DNA of 64,000 nt from Prorocentrum cordatum (lineage: Eukaryota > Sar > Dinophyceae > Prorocentrales > Prorocentraceae): assembly GCA_963575745.1 (NCBI GenBank), contig CAUYUJ010015849.1, positions 522,328-586,327 on the forward strand, in the 5' to 3' direction. Below the pieces are notes generated by a model, which was not told where the DNA came from, ran no database searches, and worked only from the letters and a program-made list of their open reading frames with translations. The position numbers and the translations under genes were made by a program. Of the stretch, positions 3,130 through 34,956 are shown one piece after another; the stretch's first letter is position 1, and every line of letters begins with the position of its first letter.

Positions 3130-3277
3130 CCTTTCGTTTCCTCCTCCTTTTCGCCCTCCACCTCCTCGCCTTTCCCCCCCTCCTCCCCCCACTGTTCCCC
3201 CTCATCCTTCTTCTTCTCCTCCTCCTCCTCCTCCTCCTCCTCCTCCCTCCTCCTCCTCCTCCTCCTCCTCCTCCTCA
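3130..3277 (+). repeat. CTC/TCC microsatellite at the 5' edge of the retrotransposon
   Basis: Pyrimidine-rich DNA that becomes an almost pure (TCC)n run from about 3205 to 3276 and abuts the spliced leader at 3278. A similar TCC run starts at the element's other end (10013). The element therefore sits inside, or created, TCC microsatellite DNA. Confidence 0.9.
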
Positions 3278-3299
3278 TCCGTAGCCATTTTGGCTCAAG
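3278..3299 (+). other. Dinoflagellate spliced leader, perfect 22-nt copy
   Basis: Reads TCCGTAGCC then ATTTTGGCTCAAG, identical to the 22-nt leader trans-spliced onto nuclear mRNAs in dinoflagellates (first base variable, here T). It lies directly after the TCC microsatellite and 118 nt before the ORF1 start, in the sense orientation. This is an integrated cDNA end and not an SL RNA gene: no intron part, Sm-type site or tandem array follows it. Confidence 0.97.
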
Positions 3300-3314
3300 C
3301 CGTTCTGGCGCAAG
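3300..3314 (+). other. Relic second spliced leader
   Basis: CCGTTCTGGCGCAAG directly follows the intact leader and matches positions 8-22 of the leader at 12 of 15 sites. In known dinoflagellate recycled cDNAs, an older integrated leader is trimmed at its own internal AG and a new leader is joined there, leaving exactly this 15-nt remnant. Its decay relative to the perfect leader fits two successive rounds of retroposition. Confidence 0.7.
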
Positions 3315-3416
3315 TTTTGTGCTTGCTGTCACTGACGATTCAGAACGGCTGGGTGACAGCGGGTCATTCTGGCTCTCGTTTCCTCCAGCCACGTCCTGCC
3401 ACTTCCAGCAGCCGCA

Positions 3417-4691
3417 ATGGTGCCGCCGCCGAAGGCCCAGCCTTGGGAGGAGCGCCCGTTTGCTAAGCGTGTTCGATTCGCCGCGGGAGGCGACGGAGCG
3501 GACCCTCAGCATCGCGGGGGCGGTCGCCAGGCGATGTGGAAGTGCAGCTACGAGGATTGTGGATGTGGAAAAAATCTTGCCAAGTGGTGGTTTTGCAAGC
3601 ACTGCAAGCGTGAACGTGTCGAAGTGCCTGTGCGCGAAGTACCTGCGCCTCGTGGGAGCTGGCAGCGGGGCCCACCGCACTTGTCGCCAGCCGCCGTCAT
3701 GGTGCCCGACACAGCGACTGAAGACGATGTCAAGCAGTTGCTCGCTCTGGCTGAGAAGTTCGGTGATTCAGTTGCAGCTTCTCAGTACAAGGTGTGGCTT
3801 GCAGCTAAGAAGCCCAAGGAGACCCCACCAAAGCCCCTGGAAAAGCAATCAGAAGAGGCGCGCCAGCGAGTTCATTCCATCGAGCGCCGCCTCAAAAAGG
3901 AGATCGACGATGTCGCCAGGGCTAAGAAGTGGCTGTGCGAATGCGAAGAAGCTATGGCCAAGCTCACGGACGAGCTGTCCACGGCCGACAAGGAGCATAA
4001 AGCCTTGGTCGAGCGGCTTCATCATGTGGTGCACCCTGATCCTCCTCAGTCTGTTGGTAAGCTCTGCCTTCGTGACATCCTCGACGGCAAGGAAGGGGCC
4101 CTCACCATTGACTACGGAGAAGGCATCCTTGGCCTCGACGCCAAGGAGTACGAGTTATCCGCCGACGACCACATCCAGTTCGAGGCCAGGAAGCGCGAGC
4201 TGGAGCAGAGTGTGGTCGCCATCACGAAGCAGTTGTTTGAGAAGGTTCAGCAGTCTGTGGACCAGATCAAAGCCTCCCACCGCCAGCGCATGTCCAAGTT
4301 ACACAGGCGGAAGCCTGAAGAGACTTCCGTCCAGCCCGCCGAGAAGGTCGCAAGTGGCAACAGCCCCGCTGGAGCTCGGCCACCACATGAACTTGGAGAT
4401 GCAGCAACTGGTGATCAAGAGGACGCCGCCAGCGGGGCCGGAGGTGCAGCCAGCAGCTCTGCAGGCGCCCACGGGGGAGCTCACGAGGCTGATGCGCCAC
4501 CGCACCAAGATGTTCGACAGCTTGCGCAGGAACTGCTCGCCAACAGGAAGCCGCCTGAGCCGCCTTCCCAAACAACCCCCCCCCGGCGCCTGATGCTCAC
4601 GCGAGCAGTGTGTCGGGGGGTAACTTCTTACACTTCTCACATGCTATCGCCAGGCTGTGCCGTGTTCCCGCCCCCAAGGCTCCGTCCTTGA
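3417..4691 (+). CDS. Retrotransposon ORF1: zinc-finger / coiled-coil protein
   Basis: 424 residues. Near the N-terminus (residues 41-63) lies a zinc-finger-like motif: Trp41, Cys43, Cys48 (Cys50), Asn53, Trp57-Trp58, Cys60, Cys63. This is close to the RanBP2 pattern W-x-C-x(2-4)-C-x3-N-x6-C-x2-C but with an extra residue. Residues about 145-205 are charged and heptad-like, and a second such segment lies near 260-300. ORF1 proteins of LINE elements bind the element RNA and multimerise; that role is inferred. The start is the first ATG after the leader in this frame. The last ~35 residues follow a C8 run and may be out of the original frame. The 3' end overlaps ORF2 by about 80 nt in another frame. 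A competing 424-residue frame from 3319 lacks any of these motifs. Confidence 0.8.
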   Translation: MVPPPKAQPWEERPFAKRVRFAAGGDGADPQHRGGGRQAMWKCSYEDCGCGKNLAKWWFCKHCKRERVEVPVREVPAPRGSWQRGPPHLSPAAVMVPDTATEDDVKQLLALAEKFGDSVAASQYKVWLAAKKPKETPPKPLEKQSEEARQRVHSIERRLKKEIDDVARAKKWLCECEEAMAKLTDELSTADKEHKALVERLHHVVHPDPPQSVGKLCLRDILDGKEGALTIDYGEGILGLDAKEYELSADDHIQFEARKRELEQSVVAITKQLFEKVQQSVDQIKASHRQRMSKLHRRKPEETSVQPAEKVASGNSPAGARPPHELGDAATGDQEDAASGAGGAASSSAGAHGGAHEADAPPHQDVRQLAQELLANRKPPEPPSQTTPPRRLMLTRAVCRGVTSYTSHMLSPGCAVFPPPRLRP

Positions 4692-7600
4692 ATTTTGGCA
4701 GGTGTCTCTGGGCCCCAGCTTGCTCGGATCTCGACAGTTTTGAATTGGTCGTGGAGACGGCAAATTGCACTGGGTGGAATGCGGCGAAAGCGTGGTTGAG
4801 TCGTACGACGGCTCATGTTGTACTTGCTCAAGAACTTCATCTTCTGGGTGACCAGGTTGGCGAGGCCTCTCAGTGGGGCCTCCGCTCAGGCTGGAAGTCC
4901 AGGATCGTCCCAGCGGCCCCAGGTATTGGGCTCGGGACCTCTGGAGGCGTGGGCATCTTCGTCAGGGACTTCTTGGGTTGTCATGACGTCTCGGCTAAGG
5001 TGGGCCCCACTCTGGTTCCCCACCGTGCTGCCTCAGCTATTGTTCAGATCCCAGGCGGAGTCTCTATCCTTGTGGTCTCCGCGTATCTCAGGGACTCCGA
5101 GGGCCTCTCCGAGTCCAATATGGGTATTTTGTGCAAGCTTCGTGCTGAATTATCCTCGTTGCTTGGGCCGTTCATCTTGGGTGCGGACTTCCAGATGGAG
5201 CCTGACGTTCTGGCTTCATGTGATTTGGTCTCGGTGCTCAGTGCCAACCTGGTCGTGCCTGAATCCAAGGGCACCTGCGTGTGCACGAGCAAGGCATGAG
5301 TCCGCATGCTCGACTATTTCCTGGTTTCCAGTGGGCTCTCGCAGGCCGTGAAGGCCACCCGTGTCTGCCTGGAGGCGGCCACCAAGCCGCACAAACCAGT
5401 GCAGTTGAGCTTCTTCCCTCAGCTGGCCAGCTTGCAGGCTTTGGGGTTTGTTAACCCTCCCCCCATCCCGATCGAGCCCCCTATCGGCCCTGCCCCTGCC
5501 CCTCAAGATTGGAAGGATGTCTTAGACTGTGCGTCTTATGGTTTGGGGTTGGTTCGCAACCGTGTCCCCAGACAGCGTTTGCAGCGTCATCTCAATATGT
5601 TGTATAAGCTTTGGGCTGACACGGCTGAGAGAGAGTTGGTCGCTGATCGACAGTGTTCACTTCCTGTTTTAGACACCCGTGGCAGGTTGCCCAAGCTTGC
5701 ATGGCGCTCTGTTTTGGATAAGGATAGGCGCACTTCTCGGCAGCCTGAATTGTGCGGAGTTCGATGTCTGGAGAGCACCCTGCGCATTTTCTGCTCGAAC
5801 CTCGGCTGCGACGTGAAGGGCTCGGCCCTCGACTCTGGCAACTTCCCCCCCCCCCCCCCCCGACATCATAGCCGACAGCATGGGGGTCCGCCAGGGTTGC
5901 TGGGATAAGGTACAACATTTCGTTCAACGATGTATGAGGTCTAATCCTCCGTCCTGCCGTGGGAAAAGCAACCCGTTCAACTCGACCAAGGGCGACGGTT
6001 CAACTGGTTGTATTCCTCGCGATGATCCTCTTGGGGCCGAAGTTTTAGAAGGTTTGATTGATGATGGTGCTAGCATCCTGGACGAGGTTTCGGAGTTCCT
6101 GGGTGAGTTTTCCATCAAGCAGCGCGATGTGGCGAACAAGTCTTGGAAGTCTTGGAACCTGGAAGGTGTCTCGAAAGGAGCCCGAAGAGCCCACTGGTGG
6201 ACCAAGGAAGTCGCCCCCTGGACCCCATGTTCTACTCTTTCGGCTAAGGGTGTTGTTTTATCTGATCCCCAAGCTCTTCTTCATTCGGAGGCTGCTCGGT
6301 TCAGTGGGCTATGGAAGGCCACGTCGGAGCCCCCCAAGCAAGAGCCCATCGAGTACCGGGATCCGCTCCCCTTCGAGTCGCCAGACTTGTTGAGAGAAGT
6401 TGCCAAGTCGTACCCCACTCGCACGGCCACCAGTGTCGACGGCTTCCATATGCGCCACTATGCTTCTCTCTGTGATGACGCGCTGGTGGCATGAATGAGT
6501 ATTTTCAGCATCATGGAAGCGTCCTCCCTTTTGCCCAACCACCTGCGTGCCATCATGGTTGCGCTTCTGCCCAAGCCTGCTGGAGGTTGGAGACCCATCG
6601 GATTGTTTAGCTCAGCATATCGGTATAGGGCAGGATGAGGAGACCACACGCAGTCCAATGTGAGGCCAGGCTCAATACAAATTATCTCAGTGCGGGAGCT
6701 TTCACTGGGGCTGGGGATGCTGTTTGGAGGCAAGCAGTGCGTTCGGAACATGCGACTAGCAGGAAGGGTAAGAAGGGTGTTGCGTGCACTGTGTTATGGG
6801 ATCTCCACAAGTTTTACGAGGCTATTAGGCTCGACATTCTACAGCGGAGGTGTGACGACTTAGGATTCCCTTCTCCTATTTCACGTCTCTGCATGGCGGC
6901 CTATAGAGGCCCAAGGTTCATCAACATCAGCGGGATCGTGAAGGGCCCTTTCTTCGCCTGGCAAGGAGTTCTTGCGGGAGTTTCCTTTGCCGCTACTTTC
7001 GTGAGGGTCTACGCCATTCCCACGATTGACCTGCTGCCGCAGAAAGTCCGCGATGCCCTCGATATCTACATCGATGATTACGGATTGCAAGCGACGGGGT
7101 CGGCCAGATCAGTCGTCGATGACATTGTGACGGGGGCCACTCAACTGTACTCGGTATTGCCGGACGATATGCAGGTGGTTGTTTCTGAAGACAAGGCGAC
7201 TGTGATCTGCTCTGATCAGGCTGTCGGCAACAAGATCAGGTCGCTGTTGGAGCATGTGGGAGGACCCTCATGTAATTCTTCTGCTGTGAATCTAGGTGTT
7301 GATGACGCCGCTGGTCGGCCCCGACGGCAAGCTGGGCGCGGCCGCAAATTTGCTGGTAGGTGCAAAGTTTTCAAGCAGAGGGTCGCCCGTCTCAAGAGGT
7401 TGAGAGGCATCCTGGGGCAGCGCTGCTGCAGGAAAGTTTTCACGTCGGGGCCCCTAGCGGGCGTCGCGTACGGATCGGTCCAGGGGCTCCGCCAGGGGCT
7501 CGGTCGGGTCCTGAAGCCTTCCGCTGGCATGAGGCCCCTCACTTCCCTGCTCATCCTTGCGAGGGACCCTACTGCTACCTCTGCTGTCGCTCCAGTCATT

Positions 7601-9907
7601 CGTTACAGCAAGGAGGTCTGGGCCAACCAGGTTAGGATTTTCAAGTATCCCCTGGATTTCAAGTTCCTGCGCGAAGCCTGGGAGACCATCTTCATCAGGG
7701 ATCCTGACGGTAAGGACCTCTCGTGGCGTATTGTGTCTGGGCCTTTGGGGGCCATGAAGCTCTCTCTGCAGCGTATCCACTGGGGTATGAAGTCTTTCAC
7801 TGAGCTCATTAATGATTTCGGGGAAACGATTGGGCTCACGTCTTTTTCCCCCTCCCTGGTCAAAAAACTGTTGGTTGAAGGGGTCCTCCGCCAGCTGCAG
7901 AGAGTCTCAGGCCAGGCGTTAGGTGTTGGCAAGCGCTTGTGCTACGATGTGGTGGAGGCCCAGCTCCACTCTAGCAAATTCACGGCCCTCGAGAAGGGCA
8001 GTATCCGTGGGCTTAGCTGTGGGGCGACCTGGACCAGGGACCGTGCGATCGCCCTGGGCTATCAGCTCGACTCCGATATCTGCCCTTTGTGCTTGGCTGC
8101 GCCAGACAGCCTCATGCACCGCCTGTGGTTCTGCCCCAGCGTTCAGGAAGATCGCGACGACCTTGTGAAAGATCGGATCCAGCAAGATGCTCGGTCGTGC
8201 GATCTTTCTGATCCTGCTACCCTCCTCCTCTATACTAAGGGTCTGTTCCCACACCCAGGTGACTCGGTTCCCCGTCCTCGCGGTGAAGGAGGTACCCAGA
8301 CCAGGTGGGAGGGAGAGCCTGATAGGGTCGACACGGCGGTCTCGGGACACATATTCATGGACGGCAGCTGTCAGAGACATAGCATTAAAGAACTATCCAG
8401 AGCAAGCTGGGGTTTTACAGCCCATGCAGACGACGGGTCTAAACTGTTTAGTGCGTTTGGGCCTATTTGGGCCCCCCTCCCCCAGACCAGCCAGGCTGGG
8501 GAGCACGGAGCCCTCGAAGCCTCCTCCCAGTGCCTTGTAGGCCCCTCTACTGGGTACTCCGATTGCCTCAACGTTGTTCGTGCCCACGGTGAGCCCCCCG
8601 CCATTAAACTGTCCCACAAGAGGCCATACGCGGGGCTCATGTTTTCTAGCTTTTCTTCGTGGTGGTCGGGAACCCTCCGCAAAGTCAAGGCCCATGTTGT
8701 GGACTCGGACGACCTGTCCGACAGGGGCCGATTTTTTAAAATTGGTAATGATGCAGCTGATGAGGCTGCCAAGGCTGGTCTTGCCACGCATCCTAGGCCC
8801 ACGGACGCCCAACTGACCGACCTTACGCACAAAATCAGCGTTGCGAAGGCCGTTTGCCGCCTGGCCGCTCGGATTTTGCCGCAGTGGCCTCGTCTCGACC
8901 TCAGCGGGGTTGAGCTGGCCAGGTCCCCGAAGAAAATCAACGTGAAACCTGGCACTGAGTTTGAGCATGTTTGGGAGTGGTGCCGCTCCTATTGGCGTTG
9001 TGGCGTTTGCTTGCGCACGAAGCATCCCACTCCGTTCATTTTTGGTAAATCAGCCAAGCCTGCATGTGAGGGTTGTACTGGCGTTATCCCCGACACTTTG
9101 TGGCAGGTCTCGGCCCTCGGACACAGGCTTTTATCATTCCAGTGCAGCGATGACTCGCCGCTGTTCGTTTGTGTTAGTTGCAAGGCTGTCTCTACCCTGG
9201 GTCCGCTGGCTCTCCTTGGTAAGCAGTGCGGACGCCCAACCAGGAACAATTCTGAGAGATGGAAGTACAGAATATGTAAGGGTCGGCACCCACGACTTCC
9301 AGGTGTGACCGTGGAAATCTCACCAGAGGTCGTGGATGCGCACCCTGGCTCGCAGGAAGAAATTGTCGTCGAGACGTCGTCCGCGCATCCTGCGAGCCAG
9401 GAGCTGCAGCAGCTTAACTCTGTCGTTGAGTCTTCGTCTGTCGATACTGCTGCCGCAGCAATCTCAGCGAGTGGCCCAAGTGGCCCGCGCTCCTGTTGGC
9501 CTGAAGAGCGCCCGGGCAAGTTCGCCCGCACCGCCCCTATGCAGGCTGACGCCGTAATGCCGTCCACGGGAGATGGGCGGCAGCGCGAGGATGTCGTCGA
9601 CCAGTCGTCTGTCGTGCAGGTCGCGGTAGCTGCTGCCACTCCCCAGTTGTTCCACTCGACCCCTGCAGACCAGGGGTCGAGGACCCGCCCCGCTTCTGCT
9701 TCTGGCGCCGATGCTCGGCCCAACAAGTCCGCTCGACACGCCGCAAATCGAGCCGAGTCAGTGCAGCAGGCTGTGAATTATTTTCCCTCGGCTTCCTCCA
9801 ACGAGAGTGGTGCGAGGGGCCGCGAGCTGAGCTGTGAGGATGGTGCGGAGGGCCCTCGCTCGAAAGCTGCTCGCGTGAGCTATGAGCCCAGAGGTGGCTC
9901 GAATTAG
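4610..9907 (+). pseudogene. Retrotransposon ORF2: endonuclease, reverse transcriptase, RNase H (broken)
   Basis: Four pieces read as one protein. Piece 1 (4610-5299) and piece 2 (5306-5908) are in the same frame, split by TGA at 5297. They carry an EEP endonuclease: AN-C-TGWN, then QELHL, GVGIFVRD, VVSAYLRD, GADFQMEP (usual GDFN altered), MLDYFLVS and PHKPV. Piece 3 (from 5862, other side of a C17 run, to 6494, then on to 6638 after TGA 6492) ends in the RT entry motif WRPIGLF. Piece 4 (6635-9907, 1090 residues) has RT motif A VLWDLHKFY (Asp56), motif B AWQG (110-111) and motif C YIDDY (145-149). It continues with a CPLC-x8-H-x4-C zinc knuckle near residue 483 and an RNase H fold with FMDGS, GEHGALEAS, YSDCLN and GNDAADEAAK. 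The end carries paired CxxC motifs (about 789-860). It would nick DNA and copy the element RNA by target-primed reverse transcription; this copy cannot make an intact product. Confidence 0.92.
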
Positions 9908-9973: not shown

Positions 9974-9995
9974 CCTAGCCTGAGACCAGGCTAGG
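9974..9995 (+). promoter_or_regulatory. 3'-UTR hairpin of the retrotransposon
   Basis: A perfect 9-bp stem, CCTAGCCTG / CAGGCTAGG, with an AGAC loop, 67 nt after the ORF2 stop and 17 nt before the TCC tail. In several LINEs a 3' stem-loop is the recognition site for the element's own reverse transcriptase; that role here is inferred from position and perfection of the stem. Confidence 0.65.
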
Positions 9996-10012: not shown

Positions 10013-10062
10013 ATCCTCCTCCTCCTCCTCCTGCTCCTCCTCCTGCTCCTCCTCGCCATCCT
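10013..10062 (+). repeat. TCC-rich 3' tail of the retrotransposon
   Basis: (TCC)n with occasional TGC follows AAAATCC. It could be a microsatellite tail added during reverse transcription, as in LINEs with short-repeat tails instead of poly(A), or the right half of a split TCC target. Positions 10063-10302 hold no recognised feature. Confidence 0.75.
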
Positions 10063-24880: not shown

Positions 24881-25307
24881 GACCCTGACCCACAACCCAG
24901 GCACGGAGGCGGGATGGGCCGATGGCCATTATTAGTTCGCCGTTTGGGGTCCGTTCCAGGGTCCCCTTTTGGACAGTGCTGGGCCCAACCGACTTGTGCC
25001 CACAAGCTTAAGCCAAACTGCCCAAACACTCAGATGGGACTCGGGCCGAACATGGGGATGGCCGCGCCTCGGCCCCGTCTAAAGAATCATCCTGGGCAGG
25101 ATTGGACCTGTCTTAAGCAACGTGCTGCCCCACTTGGGAGTGCCTGTTTGGCCGTCTCTGGGCCGTTCTCGATCGTCGCGCATGGGGTGCCAATTGTTGG
25201 CATCCTGCGAGACCATGTTGGACTTATCTCGGCAAGTGCTCAGCCCATCGTGGAGCCATCTTCGCCTCGCCTGGCGAGAACCAAAAAGGCAAGCTGTGAA
25301 CGCTAAC

Positions 25308-34934: not shown

Positions 34935-34956
34935 TCCGTAGCAATTTCGGCTCAAG
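34935..34956 (+). other. Degenerate spliced leader (20 of 22)
   Basis: TCCGTAGC-A-ATTT-C-GGCTCAAG: two substitutions (positions 9 and 14) relative to the leader. It is 34 nt upstream of, and in the same orientation as, the ATG of the gene that follows, exactly where a retroposed mRNA would carry it. Confidence 0.85.

Follow-up and report, generated by a model that had tools for sequence, protein, structure and literature searches.

A LINE copy in Prorocentrum cordatum that begins at a perfect spliced leader, with a probable relic leader behind it

Background

Slamovits and Keeling reportedly described in 2008 recycled host cDNAs of dinoflagellates that carry DinoSL together with relic leaders. 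The recycling of host mRNAs and cDNAs with their leaders is now established. Genomic DNA derived from trans-spliced mRNA shows a leader followed without a gap by positions 8-22 of another (PMC6050394, PMC7245778, PMC12014239); the leader-then-relic arrangement has been documented for host messages (PMC12014239, PMC7245778), in which CCATTTTGGCTCAAG stands behind the leader (PMC12014239). This register is expected, since a new leader that is joined at the AG of leader positions 6-7 leaves exactly positions 8-22. In one of these reports, the enzyme that recycles dinoflagellate mRNAs is called unknown, with an inclination towards LTR elements (PMC6050394).

Several described retroelements and parasitic RNAs are comparable in other respects. 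SymbioLINE-Dnmt and other dinoflagellate LINEs are two-ORF elements in dinoflagellate genomes (PMC5890265); the main text of that paper lacks words for the leader and uses trans-splicing once. The L1Tc/ingi elements of trypanosomatids are LINEs in a host with polycistronic transcription and leader trans-splicing (PMC8190864, PMC4035085). Leader-bearing and endogenised dinoRNAV are parasitic RNAs with a host leader, and genomic copies were reported near leaders for 6 of 26 RdRp ORFs (PMC10235124). In the literature on dinoflagellate LINEs, viruses and genomes, sampled mostly outside subscription journals, we found no description of a LINE that starts at a leader; retroelement genes may stand unremarked among published lists of leader-tagged genes. 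Here, we describe such a copy in a 64-kb stretch of P. cordatum DNA (the window, 64,000 nucleotides).

Results

The window contains a perfect 22-nt dinoflagellate spliced leader (TCCGTAGCCATTTTGGCTCAAG) on the plus strand at 3278-3299, which matches all 21 bases of the invariant part and has T at the D position. With up to three mismatches allowed, the leader pattern occurred twice in the window (3278-3299 and 34936-34956) and in none of 100 shuffled sequences, bearing out the original prediction of a perfect leader at 3278. The leader is followed directly by CCG rather than by a GT donor, and its identity as an SL RNA gene was ruled out for this reason. It contains two AG dinucleotides, at 3283-3284 (leader positions 6-7) and at 3298-3299 (positions 21-22). 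The former is the first AG from the leader onwards and the preceding 30 nt are 93% pyrimidine; therefore, a new copy of this kind may land ready for re-splicing.

The DNA on both outer sides of the element is a (TCC)n array. The 5' flank (3139-3277, plus strand) is 95% C/T and ends in (TCC)9-TCA, and the 3' flank (10014-10054, plus strand) shares a 19-nt exact direct repeat with it, although a target-site duplication of this kind is indistinguishable from the array itself. Since TCC-like 15-mers start at only 0.5-0.6% of the positions per strand, the presence of the array on both sides favors insertion into a single array. Flanks that match by chance are conceivable, because TCC-type tracts are frequent in the window (counting both strands, the 64 kb contain 18 runs of at least five exact units, the flanks of the element accounting for three of these).

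The insert thus begins at the leader with host DNA upstream, within an ambiguity of 3 nt. The 5' array reads (TCC)9-TCA-TCC|GTAG and is in phase with the TCC of the leader, so that leader bases 1-3 could be derived from the target. For the same reason, the first T of the leader was rejected as a marker of where the element begins. The fourth leader base is certainly element; a start at the first leader base is compatible with the data but unprovable because of the 3-nt microhomology between leader and array. The original claim that element and leader share their first base therefore held for the position of the insert, whereas the exact base is blurred.

Directly behind the leader and without a gap, 3300-3314 (CCGTTCTGGCGCAAG, plus strand) matches leader positions 8-22 at 12 of 15 bases, as originally predicted and in the register of the recycled host cDNAs. 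The probability of at least 12 of 15 matches at this fixed place was 3.5e-5 in 200,000 Markov samples. When the whole window was scanned, 63,986 positions on the plus strand gave three matches of 12 of 15 or better, of which two lay within the two leaders, and the minus strand gave one (25007-25021). A further stretch on the plus strand, 3364-3378, matches at 11 of 15 bases and is a weak candidate for a third, older relic (P approximately 0.014 for one such match anywhere in 102 nt). We consider it likely that 3300-3314 descends from a leader. The relic is probable rather than certain, because the same bases coincide with the arm of a hairpin.

This 5' UTR hairpin (3298-3350, plus strand) consists of a perfect 10-bp stem, 3298-3307 with 3341-3350, and an inner stem; its 5' arm is formed by the last two leader bases and the relic. 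Of 1,500 length-matched Markov sequences, 0.4% contained a stem of this length, as did 3 of 108 windows along the element. When the 53-nt hairpin piece was shuffled 200 times, no shuffle folded equally well (z = -3.96). The folding of the whole 117-nt and 143-nt 5' regions was unexceptional (z = -0.81 and -1.39, respectively). At each of the three differences from the leader, the base found in the relic pairs better with the present partner strand, and when leader bases were put into the relic, the long stem was lost and the folding energy changed from -24.2 to -14.1 kcal/mol. Either the relic was later shaped for pairing or its resemblance to the leader is due to chance. A second inverted repeat (GCTGTCAC/GTGACAGC, 3325-3332/3353-3360, plus strand) would make a predicted pseudoknot with the hairpin.

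The body behind the leader is a decayed LINE of 6.7 kb, comprising ORF1, an endonuclease, a reverse transcriptase (RT), an RNase H-like region and a 3' hairpin. ORF1 (3417-4691, plus strand, 424 aa) starts at the first ATG counted from the leader, and the intervening 5' UTR of 117 nt falls inside the range of 51-369 nt reported for another dinoflagellate (PMC2488372). Over 285 aligned positions, it shares 40% identity with the N-terminal part of P0002, a protein of P. cordatum; further along, P0002 also matches the RT region of the window. No methyltransferase was present among the six Pfam matches of ORF1 up to E = 1. Our protein searches each scored about 8,000 candidates, namely those that shared the most words with the query; on this basis, one related protein was found for ORF1 and nine for the RT part (P0001, P0002-P0005 and P0007-P0010).

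ORF2 is best read through P0001, an uninterrupted relative, to which three pieces across the endonuclease and RT are 47-48% identical. The endonuclease part (4706-5791, plus strand, in-frame stop at 5297) is 48% identical to P0001 residues 133-494, which hold an Exo_endo_phos domain that passes the Pfam cut-off (E = 1.6e-12); an APE-type endonuclease thus lies upstream of the RT. The RT and RNase H-like part (6063-9331, plus strand, in frames 6063-6623 and 6629-9331, with a stop at 6492) corresponds to P0001 residues 557-1643, and over the RT part the identity is 47% at 917 aligned positions, supporting an RT of LINE type. P0001 itself is barely above the Pfam cut-off for RVT_1 (30.3 versus 29.6 bits). 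The assignment of both domains in the window rests on these relatives, because the window's own pieces score under the Pfam cut-offs (16.4 bits for its RT frame with RVT_1; E = 0.18 for piece 4706-5296 alone with Exo_endo_phos). An RNase_H match was found only in P0003, where it is under its Pfam cut-off. A profile built from the window frame and four relatives (A1) matched LINE-1 ORF2 structures with E = 1.7e-4.

The copy is defective: in addition to the two stops (5297 and 6492), its reading frame is broken twice, once between 5791 and 6063 and once between 6623 and 6629. Another P. cordatum protein, P0006, aligns with the window in three segments (97%, 79% and 99%) and terminates where the window has its stop at 5297; judging from these matches, it very probably represents the LINE locus itself, as a gene model with predicted introns. 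At the other end of the element, a perfect hairpin (CCTAGCCTGAGACCAGGCTAGG, 9974-9995, plus strand; arms CCTAGCCTG/CAGGCTAGG) precedes the 3' end (GGTGAAAA, 10013). It occurs once in the window and is a possible candidate for the recognition site of the RT. Blastn detected no part of the element anywhere else in the window, and no relatives were found in IMG/VR, where records of the element's own genome may be excluded, by protein, by alignment or by the leader-plus-relic pattern.

Leaders were also seen in other settings. The second leader of the window (34936-34956) matches 19 of 21 bases (two mismatches), has no visible relic behind it and precedes ORFs without Pfam matches; it probably marks an older leader-tagged insertion. 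Behind it, between 35013 and 37313, six or seven widely spaced sites share a short motif around GGTGCTGCACAGCCC (families D3 and D4). In IMG/VR, the leader pattern occurred in a single, unrelated contig, the viral contig L001, which carries two exact dinoflagellate leaders on its minus strand (2893-2913 and 2746-2766). This contig is AT-rich by eye and has a glycosyltransferase ORF, and its leaders just precede an ORF that looks richer in GC (1936-2700); perhaps a host message was captured by the virus together with its leader.

When GTDB contigs were scanned for the leader alone, two had a match (L002 and L003), and inspection by eye showed no LINE in either. L002 is a MAG contig that otherwise looks bacterial by eye; at its edge (1-60), a (TCA)n array is immediately followed by the leader, a second case of a leader adjoining a trinucleotide array. 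In L003 (4334-4354, minus strand), the leader is followed by a GT donor and lies between LSU and SSU rRNA genes. The arrangement resembles that of an SL RNA gene within an rDNA spacer, on a contig that would be eukaryotic contamination of a bacterial MAG.

Discussion

What can be read from the DNA letters is a leader at the boundary, flanking arrays, proteins of LINE type and the resemblance of 3300-3314 to a relic. From these we infer that the element, a LINE (non-LTR retrotransposon) of P. cordatum, was likely inserted into a (TCC)n microsatellite, in sense orientation, by way of a reverse-transcribed, trans-spliced mRNA. A genomic LINE copy would be transcribed, most likely by read-through from upstream, and its RNA would receive the 22-nt leader from the host spliceosome, at an AG close to the 5' end of the copy. 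Starting at a nick in (TCC)n, the LINE RT would then copy this mRNA as far as its 5' end, leader included, presumably by target-primed reverse transcription, so that the leader DNA would become the 5' end of the new copy. The relic would stem from an earlier round, when the acceptor was the AG of positions 6-7 in the genomic leader of the parent. The simplest reading is that the trans-spliced mRNA of a LINE was reverse-transcribed, and probably twice or more.

The original prediction held that the RNA had been trans-spliced, probably twice in successive generations. At least two rounds follow if the relic is real, but they need not have been consecutive, because splicing at the AG of positions 6-7 would nest the leaders, whereas splicing at positions 21-22 would replace the old leader exactly. 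As both AGs are possible acceptors, the number of relics is a lower bound on the rounds and not a count of generations. A genomic origin from RNA trans-spliced by the host is supported for this copy by the leader at the boundary, the sense orientation of the LINE proteins and (TCC)n on both sides, but not for the whole family.

The leader might instead have come from an unrelated host retrocopy or an SL RNA gene, the LINE being a chance neighbour or having inserted downstream. Host retrocopies tagged with a leader are reported to be frequent in dinoflagellates (PMC6050394, PMC12014239), and the window does hold a second, older leader; we nevertheless regard this origin as highly improbable, given the missing GT donor, the ordinary length of the 117-nt gap in which no ATG precedes ORF1, and the array on both outer sides. 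It is also unlikely, though less so, that the relic is no descendant of a leader and that its likeness to one is a coincidence, the bases simply forming the 5' arm of a functional hairpin in the 5' UTR. The rarity and stability of the stem and its dependence on the three departures from the leader speak for such an arm, as does the scarcity of relics in one genome study, where they were found in 0.68% and 2.31% of full-length transcripts (PMC7245778). In other sets, however, about 20-26% of leader-bearing transcripts had relics (PMC6050394); the match lies in exact register directly behind the leader, the 5' regions as a whole fold unexceptionally, and the two accounts are compatible if a relic was later shaped to pair.

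A more serious possibility, although we still hold it to be somewhat doubtful, is that the LINE has its own 5' start signal and that this copy is an occasional by-product of a trans-spliced read-through transcript, the leader being accidental. The host recycles leader-bearing mRNAs in any case, the copy is defective, and the trypanosomatid LINEs, also in a leader-splicing host, rely on their own promoter and ribozyme and on unspliced RNA (PMC8190864, PMC4035085). Against this stands the relic, which, if real, implies a lineage that passed through at least two leader-bearing rounds. In addition, no Rfam ribozyme reached the gathering score in the window, the HDV-like type of L1Tc/ingi included, and a lax search of 3260-3450 (E up to 10) gave four chance-level matches to other families. 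A ribozyme at the 5' end was thus rejected at the level of Rfam, and an HDV-like order of the two inverted repeats at 3298-3360 was not seen by eye. The low share of leaders reported for P. cordatum, 4.95% of transcripts and 20.1% of gene models, counts against our preferred explanation of a reverse-transcribed, trans-spliced LINE mRNA; its authors are cautious about these values and blame fragmented assemblies (PMC10666404).

A start at the leader is thus well supported for one copy and unproven as a strategy, since no 5'-end strategy can be demonstrated from a copy that is single and defective. Two of the original statements, that such a LINE needs no 5' start signal of its own and that all insertions are marked as full length, were overstated, as they extrapolate from this one copy. 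The bolder idea of a self-renewing, host-supplied 5' end remains tentative, and we think it rather unlikely: the AGs of the inserted leader would be the next acceptors, pyrimidine microsatellites would provide the upstream tract, no promoter would be needed beyond host read-through, and the relic would be reused as a hairpin arm. Should leader starts be the rule for the whole family, trans-splicing would play the part that an internal promoter and a ribozyme play in trypanosomatid LINEs, that of providing the 5' end, and the decay of the leaders would help to date rounds of LINE activity. That the copy begins at a leader suggests that a LINE RT can make leader-bearing copies, which, if family-wide, would bear on the question of the enzyme that recycles dinoflagellate mRNAs.

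The differences from the known systems are as follows. The dinoRNAV sequences are thought to have been moved by host retroelements (PMC10235124), whereas a LINE moves itself. SymbioLINE-Dnmt has a DNA methyltransferase in ORF1 (PMC5890265), unlike the ORF1 described here, in which no methyltransferase match was found. L1Tc/ingi elements carry the 77-nt Pr77 promoter and an HDV-like ribozyme at their 5' end and use unspliced RNA (PMC8190864, PMC4035085). The arrangement at the 5' end of our element, a gapless leader and positions 8-22, is the same as in the recycled host cDNAs; unlike those, the recycled message here encodes the retrotransposon itself, and the leader could therefore be renewed by the element in cis.
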